A DNA stretch of 64,000 nucleotides. Source: Hypomesus transpacificus (lineage: Eukaryota; Chordata; Actinopteri; Osmeriformes; Osmeridae). This document shows positions 5,922-45,601 of this stretch, in pieces (positions within the stretch are counted from its first letter, which is position 1; each line of letters starts with the position of its first letter). The notes under the pieces are model-generated. The model did no database searches. It had not been told where the DNA came from and was given only the letters and a program-made list of their open reading frames with translations. The stretch spans positions 2,736,333 to 2,800,332 of the forward strand of contig NC_061066.1 of NCBI RefSeq assembly GCF_021917145.1, read 5' to 3'. Made by a program: the position numbers and the translations under genes.

Positions 5922-8096
5922 GAGGAGGAGGAGGAGGGTTCATCTGGTGCCAGGTGTTCAACAGAACTTTAGTGAGATATCCCACTGAGAAAATTGTAAG
6001 ACTGGAAGATAAGATTTTTAAATGCTCTGTCATTATTACACAAAAATCTCTGAGGTGCTTGGTGGTAGCTCCGAGAGGGTACTTTTCGTAAACCGACGTC
6101 TGCTGATATAAAAGCTCATCTCCACCCCCCCCAATCCAGCTTATTGACTTATTTGACTCAGCTTATTTGACTGACCACACCTGGAGAGGGCTCACTGCTT
6201 TGTATGAATGTAGCTCCTCTGTGATGCCGTGAGTCCGCCTGTTGGAAGTTCTGCCAGATCACCAAGGAACCTGGGACAAAGACGAGACGCTGCAGCCACA
6301 CACCATCAAACACACCATCAAACACCTGGAACACAGCTGCTCAAGTCAGATGCTCTCATCCTGGCCCCCCTCGTCAGCACAGAGTGCAAACCAGATCTAA
6401 GAAAACCAGACCATCAAACTTTCAAACTTGGCTCCCTACGTGGGCGTGATGAGAGGTGAGAGGAATCACACCAGGGTTGAGAATCACAACCACGGGAAGC
6501 GAGGAACTAAACTAGAGAGTTCAAAAGGCGTGAATCACAGCATAGTGTTTGTTAACTTCCAGGGGGTTAGGGATGAGGACTGTGGTTTTTCCCACACTGT
6601 TGTGTTTTTGGTTGAGACTTCTCACCAGCATACACTTTTTTTTGTTGCATTTAACATAACTATGCATGCAGCAATTACACTTGTAGAAGCAATTTACCTC
6701 TCCACAATTTGGTGAGGCCTTAACAGTTTATTTACTCCTCTGGGAAGGGTTCTGAAACAACTGCCATCAAGAAACAATTTGTAGCATAACAAGGGAATGA
6801 GGGAGGAGATGGTGGTGAGGGGGGTGGGGGGGAGGGAGGTGGTAGGTTAAAAAGTTCTCCACAGACCTAAGGAGAGTCTCTCCTGCAGAGACTGCAGTCA
6901 GCTAGAACAGTCCTGTTCTCTGCCGGAGGGGAAAAGAAAACACTGGCCAGATTGCAGAATAATTTCCCCACTTTGATTTTGGCTCCAAAGAAAGTAGACA
7001 GGAAGTTGACTATTCCTCCAGACCACCAGTGATTGGCAGTTGGGGGATGGGAGGGCAGGTTGGAGTCCTCTACCCCTGGTCTGGGATCAGTTTCTGGGCC
7101 CACCGCCCTGACCTTCACCCATATACAAGGAGCACTCCGAAACTGATCTTAAATCAGTTCCTCAGGCCATAGCTGGCCTTCCCGATCCTGGCAACTGGGA
7201 CCCTGAAAAAGAAATTTAGCATGCCAGAGCCTTATCTCAGTGCCAGACACTTTGAATTTCGTAGCTAATTTGCCTTCATTGTTGCCAGATGTGGCGACAT
7301 GGAGACAGATGTTTATGATATTAAATGTCCACGGGCGGCTCGTTGAAATTGTTTTTCTTTTGTTGTGAAGCTCAGGAAATCTGCTGAAGGAATGGAGTCA
7401 AACTCTTTACTACCTCTTTGTGTGTTCCTTGGGTCCTGTTTTGAGCTGGGTTGAGGCTCCAACAGTAACAGTAAACTGAGAAAATGAATTAAACAATAAC
7501 TTACAATCAAACACAGATAAAGTGACCCACAGTAATATTATGTTTATGTGTTTTTAATCTGGGCTTCCCTTTCCTAGCTTGTCTTAAATTGTTGGTCAGC
7601 GAAGAATTCATTCTAACCCTAACTAAACCTTGCCAATCAAATGACTTACAGAGAAATAATTGCTGTGGGAGACCAGCTTCTAGCCCATAATAAAGTTGAT
7701 CGATGATTGAAAAACAAGAGTTATGAGCGTGACCCATCAGCCACCACAAAGACCAGTGGCTGTGATTCCACTCTGTTGACAAGTATTCTCACACAGTCAC
7801 ACTCAGAACCATGTCTTCTACTGTGACTCACTCCTCTAGAAGTCCTTTGATCTGCGAGGTTCAGCTAAACTCTGCAATCAATTCCTCGCTGACCACCAAT
7901 CTAAAGAGTTAAGCTGGGAAAAGCTAGCCCTGATTAAAAACACAGAAACATGATATTATTGTGGGTCAAAGTATCTGTGTTTTGGAAGGCGGACCACTTT
8001 TGCAGAAGGACCTACTTGTTGCCCCAGAGATTGTTGTCATGGCAACACAGGGAAGACTCGGGCACAGCCTAAGTTGGATGCATCACGGCAAAAACG

Positions 8097-30038: not shown

Positions 30039-33000
30039 TCAACAGCCACACCAGTGTGGGTCTGTTGGAATGAGAAGAGAAATGGAGAGATATTATTACC
30101 AGCTGGTATCTGAATATTGCACACTTAATAGTAACAATTCATTTCTTCTGAGGAGGTGTAGCTCAGTGGTAGGGCTCTGAGTACAGATGATGAGGTTTCA
30201 CGTTGAAATCGCCCTTGCACTGTTTCACGCTTTGGATAAAACTTGCTGAACATCATTATTTCATTCAGAGAAGTGGACCCGACAGTCGTCTTAACTACCT
30301 GAGACAGAGAGTGTCTCGTTGACGCTCGCTGTCCTCCCAGTGACACTGTTGTGGGCCTCGCAGCTCAGCGACTCCGTGGGCACATAGCGACTGACGGTCA
30401 CGTCCACCGTACTTCCTGTCATGGTGTGACCGTACACGGTCCAGGTGAAGCTACAGGAGGGGGAGCACTGGGCCGAGCACCTGAACGTAGCCTTCACCCC
30501 CACGTCTAGAGAACGAGGCCCTGAGATGGTCACGTTGGACGGCCCATCTAAGAAAGGGACTATTCGAAGATTGAGCGAATACCGTTGATTTTCCCATTCT
30601 GTAATATTATCACGTGCTCATTCTTAAAAAAATTCAAAAAATAGGTGTTGGTATTGAGAGACTGAGTAATGGATAGGCAGACATACCTATGGGAATCACC
30701 ATGGTCTCAGAAGAGCTGTTTTCTTTAGTGACTGGGTTGTTGGCTACGCAGGTGAGAGGTCCTCCCTGTACAGGGGTCCCTGAGGTCAAGGAGAAGGCTG
30801 CTTTCAGAGCCACCGGCTTGCCGTTGTAGATCCAGGTGTAGGAACAGTTTGGGTAGCATTCAGAAGAGCACAGGAGGCCCGTGGTTGACCCCGGTGACAC
30901 GTACAACTCTGGTCCCACCGGGCCTATCTCTGGGCGGACGATCGCAACATCAACTGGTCCATCTGGGAAACAGGTCAAATCACTTTTGTGTTATTTCTTT
31001 ATTTCTATTTTTATTAAGGTTAAGATTTTCAGCATCACATCCTGACAGTTTGTAGTAAGTGTGAGTTAATACTCACAATACACATTCAACTGGTAGCCGA
31101 TGCCTTTCAACGACTGCCCCCCCTGAGACACAACACATTGGTACAGTCCTCCATCTGACTGTTGCAGTGGGCTGAAGGATAGAGTTGTGTTCTGGAGGGA
31201 GAGACTAACTCTACTGGACACAGGTAAAGGAACGGCATCTTTAGTCCACAAGATGGAGGCTGGGTTCTGTGAGCCCACACAATGCAATGAGTAAACCTGG
31301 CCTGCCACAGGCAGTGTTGAGGAAACAGGCTGCACAGAAATAGGGTCTAAGGAAGGAGAGGGGAGGGGAAGGAAGGAAGGGAAGGATGGGAGAAGAAAGA
31401 AGAGAAGATGAGAGGAACCAAGGTTGTCGTCATAGACAACACTTTGCAGTGTACCACACTCTCAGTGGCCATTCACCTGTAGATTATTTGCAGGTATACC
31501 ACACACTATACAAGCACTTCTCTAACTTCTTTCAACAACTTACCCTTGTTCATTCACGGTATACAGTTTACAATTGTCCTAATTAGAATCAGAAGGGATT
31601 TTATTCGCCATGAATGTTTGCACAAACAAGGAATTTACTTAGGCAGGGAGGTGCATACATTAAACATATAGGAATATTGAGACTTAAATATGTGAACTAA
31701 CTATACAAAAGGAGCCAAGTCCAGCTAATACTAAGGGGAGTCTAGCTAATACTAAGGGGAATAAAATATAAAATATAAGTAGCCATTTCCCCTTCATATC
31801 TGCGCAATGTATAAACCAAACAGTAAATTGACCAAAGACTAACACACAGTCTGCGTACTTCCTTCCTTTCCTCCGTGCTAACAATGGCTATCCCATAATG
31901 CTAACCAACTCACCGATGACAGTCAGGGTGGCAGTGGTGACGATTGTGAGCCCCGATATGGTGTTCTGGGCCTTGCACGTCAGGTTTTCTGTGTGGGTGT
32001 AATCACTGATGGTGAACACTAGCTTGCTCATCACTTTGCGCTTGTCCCCCTTGTGAAGAATGGGCACCTGGATCTGGTCCCCCGGGTAGGTGTGTCCATT
32101 GTAGGTCCACGTGTAATTGCAGGAGGGTGTGCAGTAGACGATGCAGAAGAACTTGTAGGTGCTCCCCAGGATCACGGTGTTGGATCCAGCCTGGTTGCTG
32201 ATCGAGATGTCGTCTGGTCCAGCTGAGAAAGGGCAGAGGGGAGGTAGTCATGGGAGCACGGCGAACGGTGTCATAACTTGAGAAACCGAATGTTTCCGTG
32301 CACGTACTTGCCACCCACACCGAGGTGGTTTTGGAGATGAAGAGATGAGAGACAGAGTTCTGGGCCTGGCAGGTCAGCTTCTCAGACATGGCGTCCGATG
32401 GGGGCGTGATGGTGAGGCTGCTTCCCTCGGATGTGACGCCCGTACTCTGGCCCTCGGAGCCGACCGTCCAAGTGTACAAGCAGGAGGGGTAGCAGTCGGC
32501 CAAGCAGGTGAAGGTGGACGACTGGCCGTTGGACAGCATGTCAGGACCGGAGATGATGATGTCGGAGGGTCCCTCTGAAGGAACGAGGAGGTCGGCATGG
32601 ATAAGATCAGGTTTGAGGACACACATACACAGTCATAAGCTCACACCCATACACACTAACAAAACTATAGCCCCCCCCCCTCTCCTAGCCCCCCTCTCCT
32701 AGCCCCCCTCTCCTAGCCCCCCTCCCCCCTCTCCTAGCCCCCCCCCCCCCGCCCCCCACGCACACAGAACAACCCACAGCCCCAGTACCTGTGACCTGCA
32801 GGGTCTTCTTGACGGTGACAGACTCCCCAGTGGCCGGGTTGAGGGCCACACAGATCAGAACCTGGGGCTGCACCCGAACCTGAAGCTCCAGTCTGAGCTC
32901 CGGGCCCTGGGCAGTCTGGTTTCCTCGGGTCCAGCTGAAGGTACAGGCCGGAGAACATGTTGCAGAACACTGGAACGCGTAAGGAATCCCCACAGTCACG

Positions 33001-35104: not shown

Positions 35105-35262
35105 TTTACATTTACATTTAGTCATTTAGCAGACGCTCTTATCCAGAGCGACTTACAGTAAGTACAGGGACATTCCCCCCGAGGCAAGTAGGGTGAAGTG
35201 CCTTGCCCAAGGACACAACATCATGTGGCACGGCGAGGAATTGATCCGGCAACCTTCTGGTT
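35105..35262 (+). mobile_element. Teleost interspersed repeat
   Basis: TTTACATTTAGTCATTTAGC, then AGACGCTCTTATCCAGAGCG, and later GTGCCTTGCCCAAGGACACA and CGGCAACCTTCTGGTT. I recall this wording as a very common fish repeat, usually flanked by CTAAT-like ends as here. It has no coding capacity. Confidence 0.7.
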
Positions 35263-35786: not shown

Positions 35787-38700
35787 CTATAGGAGTATTA
35801 CACTGACAAGAGTTAATGCAAACAGCAGCAATCCTAAAGTCAGCTCTGCTCGTGTGGCCATAGACCTACCATAGGCTGGGGTAAGAACAGAACACAGGAG
35901 AGATATTACCAAACATATGGCTGATGATGCTGAGCTGTACCCATTCAATTCATTTGACCAAATCTAACTATACTTGCATTTCCATTTTTTTGATGGAATG
36001 TCACAAAGGGCTTCAGTCACCCACAGATCAGATCAGATCAGAAAGATCAGCTTTACTCACGTCCTTCCAACGATACAGCCTTGGTAGCTGACTTTGCCTG
36101 TCCGGAGACAATGTTTTGTGCCTCGCACAGGATCGTGTCTGACTTTGTTCTGTCTGATATAGTGATGGCCATGTATGACAACCTTTGTCCCTCCATGGTA
36201 TGTCCGTCTACGAACCACAGGTAGGCACAGCTTGGGCTGCACTCAGCATAGCACCAGAAGGTGGCCTCTTTCCCGGGCCTTACATAATCCGGTCCCTTGA
36301 TGGTGACATCTGAGGGACCATCTGAGACGAACAAGCAAACAAAACATGTTTTGTAAAACATAACCCAATAACCATTCCAGCTCCCTCACTTCACTTTATC
36401 CTCTTAGTTTAGCATAAACTGACCTGTTTGATATATCCAAGCACTTTCATCTCTAGACAACTTTGACAACACAAACACATTTGATGAAAACAATAATAAC
36501 ATTATAATCATTATAACTGACTGAATGTTGTGAATCTGAAGGAGGGGGGGGGGGGCGGGGGGGTAGGGAGGGAGGGGTGGGGGGGTAGGGAGGGAGGGAC
36601 GGGGGGGTATGGAGGGGGGGATGGGGGGGGGGGGTAGGTGGGTGGGGGGGTAGGTGGGTGGGTGCGGTTTAGTAAATGCCAGTATTTTAGTAGTAGTAGT
36701 ATATTTGTCAAAGACATGCTGCTTCTCCCACCATGCATTGCAATACAGATTTACTTACTTTCGTACATACATTTTAAAGCTTAACAAAACTCACAACTGC
36801 TAAATAACTGAATGCACACATTGTAATTCATATATTCTAACCTGGCTCTGTCTTAGAGCTGTAATGGATGAGTTTGGTTGTACACCGTGTCTGGGTCTGG
36901 GGTTTGGTGTGGTGTGGAAACATGGATGGCACACTTACAGTTTATCTTTGCGCAGTGGCAGTATCGTAGCCTATGAGGTTTATCCGAGGCGTGGTTATTG
37001 CTAGTTGAAAACTTTACCCAATACCCCGCTGTGACGACTTGAAATATAGTCGGCATTGGCAATTTTTTGAGGTCTCTATGGAGACCAATTTCTCTGTTGA
37101 AATCAATGATTGGAAACTGTTAATAGTACCTAGTGTTTTGATGTAACTTATTCCATCCGTGATGAGAGTAGGTACATGATTTGATGTGTAGTCAGGTTAG
37201 TTTGGTTCTGGTTATATTGCATACAATTAGTTACATATGATACGAACCTCATTTTACGGATACCCAATGCGATATATGGTCTTATATGCAATATAACCAG
37301 AACCAAACTAACCTGACCATACATCAAATCATGTAACTACTCTCATCCGCAGATGGAATAAGTTGCATCAGAACACTAGGTACTACTGACAGTTTCCAAT
37401 CATTGATTTCGACAGAGAGATTAGTCTCCATAGAGACCTCAAAAAATTGCTAATGCCGACTATATTTCAAGTCGTCACAGCAGGGTATTGGGTAAAGTTT
37501 TCAACTAGCAATAATCACACCTCGGATTAACCTCATAGGCTACAATACTGCCACTGCGCAAAGATAACTTGCATGTGTGCCAGCCATGTTACGAGACCAC
37601 ACCAAACCCCAGACCCAGACACGGTTTACAACCAAACTCATCCGTTACAGCTCTAAGACAGAGCCAGGTTAGAATATATGAATTACAATGTGTGCATTCA
37701 GTTATTTAGCAGTTGTGAGTTTTGTTAAGCTTTAAAATGTATGTACAAAAGTAAGTAAATCTGTATTGCAATGCATGGTGGGAGAAGCAGCATGTCTTTG
37801 ACATGTAAATACTGGCATTTACCAACATGGCCGACCACCTTAGTCTTGATGTACACATGGCTGAGAAGACAAGGTAGAACAAAAAGAAACTCAGAAGAGA
37901 TGAACTTCAATTCCGTGTGACCTACATGCAACGTTTAAGCTTGCCATGGCGTATAGGCCAGACACACTGTTGATGGCCTTGCAGGTCAAGGTCCTCTCCT
38001 TTGCCAGCTTTTTGGCGGTAATGGAAATCTCATTCCCATGCCCCCCAAGCCACCGGGACCCAAATCTCCAGGTGAAGTTGCACGAGGGACGGCAACTAGC
38101 GTAACACAAGAAGCTTTGTTTGCTTCCTGGAACCACCAGCTCTGGGCCGTTAATGGAGACGTTGGCAGGTCCAGCTGGAACATGACATGCATAAGAAATT
38201 GGTGAATCAGGGTCCAGCCATGCTTTTCAGTGCACAGACTTGACACTTGTTACAGAAGCACAGCTACAGTTTGTTAGTCCAAAGCAAAGTATTGGTTTGT
38301 CAGTCCAAAGCAAAGCTACTGCCACACCTTTAAACAAACATGCAGAAGCGGATCTGAGCGAGGTTAGACACCTCCACAGAGACATGACCTCTCATCTTAG
38401 AAGACGCAAACACACTGCGTGATAAAACCGATACAAATAAATTGAATTCTTCATCTTAATTTACAGGCACACATTTTCAACTGGCACCTCAGTGTTCTGC
38501 CAAGCTTATCCACGTCACTTATCATCAGCATCTATGTTTAACAATACGAGACAAAGGAAATTGCTGTTGGCCACACTAAGCACACCGCGCCATGACTCAG
38601 GGAAACACCAAGCAATCAGCTGTGAGGTGAGTGTTGTTGACTTTGGCTCAGTGGTAGATCATTTGACTGCAGATCACTTTGGATGAAAGTATCTTAATAA

Positions 38701-40881: not shown

Positions 40882-45601
<4,720 letters not shown>

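Follow-up and report, generated by a model that had tools for sequence, protein, structure and literature searches.

Two U4 snRNA sequences face each other on the arms of an inverted repeat in the stretch of DNA analysed here (64 kb; hereafter the window), and the locus raises the question of how such a pair arose and whether either copy is a working gene.

Geometry of the inverted repeat

The repeat was delimited by repeat finding and, for the arms, also by their alignment.

36671..37226, plus strand: left arm, carrying U4 unit A
37227..37281, no strand: 55-nt centre between the arms
37282..37823, minus strand: right arm, carrying U4 unit B

Repeat finding resolved an ungapped outer block (36706-37157/37352-37803, 452 nt, 95% identity) and an inner block (37161-37226/37282-37347, 66 nt, 94% identity). 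The outer limits, at ~36671 and ~37823, lie beyond a 15-nt AGT-repeat indel; the repeat measures ~1.15 kb overall, and the 3′ ends of the two RNAs are opposed with 332 nt between them. The initial annotation had described two reverse-complement arms in convergent arrangement, each with a full-length U4-like sequence, and Rfam and repeat finding bear out both this description and the positions that it gave. Each arm includes ~270 nt upstream and ~138 nt downstream of the RNA, which means that DNA and not RNA was copied. Whole U4 transcription units, that is, distal element, promoter spacer, RNA and 3′ flank, are duplicated in inverted orientation; the earlier claim that the duplication went beyond retro-copied RNAs thus holds, with flanks and distal sites present on both arms.

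No third copy of the U4 unit was found by blastn within the 64-kb window. Comparison of the window with its own minus strand (blastn, E ≤ 1e-8, low-complexity filter on) gave a single other inverted pair, at 7509-7982 (149 nt, 77%). Because the arms are an inverted repeat, they are predicted to form one long hairpin, as RNA or as DNA. Directly outside the left arm lies a G-rich tract (36540-36665), which is possibly breakage-prone and may be linked to the duplication.

Identity and conserved parts of the U4 RNAs

The covariance-model check proposed with the initial annotation was made by scanning the whole window with Rfam 15, in which the U4 threshold is 46 bits.

36944..37088, plus strand: U4 snRNA copy A (Rfam RF00015, 119.8 bits, E = 1e-26, over 36944-37084)
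37421..37565, minus strand: U4 snRNA copy B (Rfam RF00015, 114.8 bits, E = 2.2e-25, over 37425-37565)

Both copies span model positions 1-138 of 138 and, by sequence, are ~145 nt each; the last 4 nt of copy A were assigned by symmetry with the known length of 145 nt. Chance resemblance to U4 was rejected on the basis of these matches and of the comparison with human U4. The scan gave three matches above threshold in the window, the third being the 3′ tail element of a UnaL2 LINE (35116-35169, minus strand, 64.9 bits), and a tRNA search of the window returned no genes.

The copies were compared with human U4 and U6. Stem II, the T-loop and Stem III are identical in both copies to human U4, and A61G is the sole departure from it in the intact set formed by these elements and the other U6-pairing stem, Stem I. 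This base lies within the TTGCTAG of Stem I, which had been taken as the mark of variant U4 genes in the U6-pairing region. That reading falls away, as TTGCTAG is the Rfam U4 consensus and G61 the consensus base; human U4 has A. The predicted energies of the U4/U6 duplex are −54.5 kcal/mol for A and −51.8 kcal/mol for B, against −56.4 kcal/mol for the human RNAs. The Sm site AATTTTTTG is found in both copies and is one T longer than in human U4; after it, a terminal stem-loop with a 6-pair stem is present in both A and B.

The k-turn of the 5′ stem-loop retains G32, A33, G43 and A44 in both copies, but position 29 is U in each, in place of the A of the Rfam consensus and of human U4. Human variants are depleted across n.27-33 of U4, a region that includes position 29, the depletion being described for the region as a whole (PMC13253345). 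The predicted 5′ stem-loop is weaker in copy B (−4.4 versus −7.3 kcal/mol in A). The RNA of B also has only 4 CpGs, whereas A has 7 and human U4 has 10, and it shows more differences from human U4 over the first 124 nt (12, versus 8 in A).

Differences between the two RNAs

Seven of the 145 RNA positions distinguish A from B (22, 38, 47, 51, 84, 115 and 143); six of these differences are transitions and one is a transversion. None of the seven falls in the 56 positions that we set as functional, and none of 27 stem pairs is broken. The functional set was our own choice from regions given in PMC13253345, a saturation editing study of human RNU4-2, and comprises Stem II, the k-turn, Stem I, the T-loop, Stem III and the Sm site, to which one position was added for the additional T. 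The pairs were taken from the Rfam 5′ stem-loop, 36-40 excepted, and from the predicted folds of the 3′ and terminal stem-loops of copy A. Five of the seven differences lie in stems, and a standard pair is retained at each: U21-G51/U21-A51, C22-G50/U22-G50, G26-C47/G26-U47, U87-G115/U87-A115 and G128-C143/G128-U143.

When the differences were placed at random, the joint outcome of no functional hit and no broken pair had p = 0.0010-0.0033 across six settings (A or B as ancestor, each with a CpG weight of 1, 5 or 10). Avoidance of functional sites alone gave p = 0.015-0.042, and unbroken pairs alone were not significant (p = 0.15-0.25). This non-random pattern suggests selection on the RNAs, at least in the past. 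The rate of difference in the RNA is lower than in the remainder of 36913-37226 (7/145 versus 20/168, p = 0.020) but not significantly below that in the 3′ flank alone (7/145 versus 12/138, p = 0.14). For reference, human RNU4-1 and RNU4-2 differ at 4/145 positions according to PMC13253345, as against 7/145 here, and the U4 RNAs of human, mouse, rat and chicken are described in PMC4291461 as having only three nucleotide variations.

Promoter and 3′ elements

In vertebrate snRNA genes read by polymerase II, a distal element with a STAF/ZNF143 site is expected near −200 and a PSE near −55. The combination of ZNF143, octamer and PSE elements in such promoters has been described (PMC3499247). Candidates for these elements and for a 3′ box were located as follows.

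36725..36742, plus strand: STAF/ZNF143 site of copy A, −219 to −202, 0 mismatches to YWCCCRNMATSCMYYRCR
37767..37784, minus strand: STAF/ZNF143 site of copy B, −219 to −202, 0 mismatches to the 18-nt consensus
36884..36898, plus strand: PSE-like block of copy A, −60 to −46, weak (pattern search, position)
37611..37625, minus strand: PSE-like block of copy B, weak (pattern search); the adjacent upstream base, 37626, differs from 36883 of A
37803..37810, minus strand: octamer-like ATTTACAT (7/8) of copy B, −245 (arm alignment, motif scan)
37096..37107, plus strand: 3′-box-like GTTGAAATCAAT of copy A, 8/12, weak (motif scan)

The 18-nt STAF/ZNF143 consensus was taken from PMC5006282, and the review PMC5493778 gives a similar form. 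Within it lies CCCACCATGCATTGC, which had been placed 203-217 bases upstream of both RNAs and was found there, at −217 to −203 in each unit. These two sites are the only ones in the window at no more than 1 mismatch, where 0.32 are expected and two or more occurred in 2 of 100 shuffles. They are non-independent evidence because the distal promoters of A and B are nearly identical and have apparently been converted.

Of the PSE-like block that had been proposed near −60, the presence in both copies stood and the likeness to a PSE proved weak. The block, ACCGTGTCTGGGTCT, is found in both promoters, and by hand count it agrees with the human PSE consensus of PMC5493778 at 6/12 specified positions in A and 5/12 in B, which is the background level in the window. 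In neither promoter do the four best listed matches to that consensus include it. With a short PSE pattern of our own, 16 matches were obtained in the window at no more than 1 mismatch (7.1 expected); a third perfect match lies at 43472-43486. The PSE is therefore weakly recognised, by its position and first half only, against a consensus that is human while fish PSEs are divergent. The U6 promoters of fish also fit the PSE consensus poorly, with 60% in tilapia (PMC8041756), and in zebrafish U6 a TATA motif was the only one found (PMC11541246).

The octamer-like site of B has no intact counterpart in A, where an AGT-repeat insertion interrupts the matching place; B has an additional reversed 7/8 octamer match at −9. 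Downstream of the RNA of copy A, three more 8/12 matches to the 3′ box are listed within +146 to +200, and GTTGAAATCAAT, although at the position expected for this element, is no better than these; the corresponding sequence of copy B has one matching position fewer by hand count. Transcription by polymerase III was considered and rejected, as neither copy has a TATA-like box near −25 and a T run lies within the RNA (by eye).

Divergence of the arms and probable gene conversion

Substitutions separate the arms at 30 of 520 aligned sites, a comparison that omits the identical base 36943 and a one-base gap, and these differences are unevenly distributed. By segment, with borders picked after viewing the data, the substitutions number 3/207 (36706-36912), 8/30 (36913-36942), 7/145 (RNA) and 12/138 (37089-37226). 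With the choice of border taken into account, a change-point test gave p = 0.0022 and placed the best border ~78 bases upstream. Between the distal element and the −60 block, 102 consecutive nt are free of differences (p = 0.035), and snRNA promoters are usually not conserved in this interval. The uneven pattern fits gene conversion from arm to arm, and a recent conversion of the distal promoter would be its simplest reading. Alternatively, selection acting on the distal promoter may have kept the two alike.

Apparent host intron and surroundings

The pair appears to sit within an intron of a minus-strand gene.

36322..37925, minus strand: host intron between two Ig-like exons (splice sites by eye; not a gene prediction)

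The donor, T|gtaggt, and the acceptor, cgtctcag|ATGG, are both in phase 1, and the U4 pair fills 1153 of the 1604 nt of this apparent intron. The minus-strand frames 36056-36385 and 37894-38226 are alike and also resemble neighbouring frames (by eye); the apparent host is an Ig-like gene, with several such frames at 30-40 kb. Ten frames were scanned with Pfam. Frame 31069-31461 scored above the Ig cut-offs, and 36056-36385 had an Ig_3 match below cut-off (E = 0.0007). A Pkinase match, also below cut-off (E = 0.00025), was obtained for 44552-44761, and the remaining seven of the ten frames scanned, 37894-38226 included, gave no Pfam match. Together with neighbouring frames, 44552-44761 (minus strand) is an exon of a p38-type MAP kinase, nearest to MAPK12/MAPK13 and with MAPK12 as the best match (E = 1.5e-18).

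Origin and state of the pair

Taken together, the arms, RNAs, distal sites and pattern of differences make it probable that a whole polymerase II U4 snRNA unit gave rise to an inverted, convergent duplicate within an intron of an Ig-like gene; that gene conversion between the arms followed, the latest of it in the distal promoter; and that at least one of the copies was functional as a U4 gene until recently and may be so still. The last part follows from the RNAs, which have remained foldable and compatible with U6. In such a gene, ZNF143 would bind the distal element and SNAPc the divergent PSE near −60, polymerase II would yield a U4 precursor to be cut at the 3′ box, and the mature RNA would pair with U6 in the tri-snRNP. 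Judged from the DNA, expression of at least one copy is plausible.

Several observations stand against full function, namely the poor PSE, the weak 3′ box, U29, the weaker 5′ stem-loop of B, the CpG-poor RNA of B, the loss of the octamer-like site in A and the divergence between A and B. A rival explanation is that both copies are dead, an inverted duplicate of a formerly active U4 gene now decaying in the intron, with U4 supplied by other genes. In its favour are the weak PSE and 3′ box, the U29 change common to both copies, the loss of CpGs and the weaker stem in B, the loss of the octamer-like site in A and an A-B divergence that exceeds that of other vertebrate U4 paralogues. We regard this as unlikely, as the RNA differences are non-random (joint p = 0.001-0.003), both ZNF143 sites are perfect, and poor PSE matches are likewise a property of fish U6 promoters. 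According to the review PMC5493778, teleosts lack snRNA pseudogenes, a point that favours working copies only insofar as this DNA is from a teleost. A possible, if tentative, special case of the preferred explanation is that one gene works and its partner decays. Copy A, with the higher U4 score and the stronger 5′ stem-loop, has the better RNA, and copy B retains ATTTACAT at −245 where A has the AGT-repeat insertion; these two asymmetries, however, favour opposite copies, and the RNA differences of B retain all 27 pairs.

Inverted repeats are a known assembly hazard, and a false inverted duplication would produce such a pair, but this is very improbable here given 30 uneven differences over 520 sites and a unique centre of 55 nt. 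Retro-copied U4 RNAs, like the pseudogenes of mammals, or U4 carried as transposon cargo would find some encouragement in the UnaL2 element 1.5 kb off. We consider this origin extremely improbable in view of the long untranscribed flanks on the arms and the lack of a third unit within the window; retro-copying was rejected outright on the promoter common to both arms. A more elaborate reading of the pair is that it corrects itself: conversion between the arms would keep one promoter for two U4 isoforms, A and B would be used at different stages, and a 1.1-kb hairpin from readthrough or from the host-intron transcript would place the pair, or the host gene, under added control by double-stranded RNA. 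In this reading the stage-specific use is tied to the octamer-like site, which is kept in B and lost in A, and the whole proposition is highly doubtful.

Comparison with known systems

The human RNU4-1/RNU4-2 and chicken U4B/U4X genes are arranged head-to-tail. The present pair differs from them in being convergent, on inverted arms and inside an intron. By the title of a 1997 report of Gao, Frey and Matera, human U3 genes are said to lie in a complex inverted repeat at 17p11.2; there, small nuclear RNA genes are likewise multiplied as inverted repeats, but the RNA is U3. The human and chicken U4 pairs resemble the present one in being adjacent genes with few differences (4/145 in human, PMC13253345). 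The long inverted repeats of C. elegans are similar in that they hold convergent paralogues on near-identical arms, intergenic DNA included, for which conversion has been proposed; they differ in being protein-coding and of a nematode, and their maintenance was compared across species, while a single sequence is considered here (PMC1803023). A convergent U3-U5 pair is described in Euglena (PMC2784804), in an article that also cites the human U3 report. Among the listed titles and abstracts on fish, inverted or convergent U4 genes, none describes an inverted U4 pair, although one may have been published.

More generally, snRNA genes that are multi-copy and evolve in concert, with developmental switching of isoforms, are known; for U4 such switching has been reported in Xenopus and chicken (PMC4291461). 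The pair described here is a real yet fairly ordinary example of such multiplication and does not change ideas on snRNA genes. It does offer a clean, small case of how these genes multiply and stay homogeneous in sequence, by an inverted duplication at the level of DNA together with an apparent patch of conversion. The copy-specific differences in the RNA would allow the expression of each copy to be read out directly, and the pair could be used to test isoform switching outside Xenopus and chicken.
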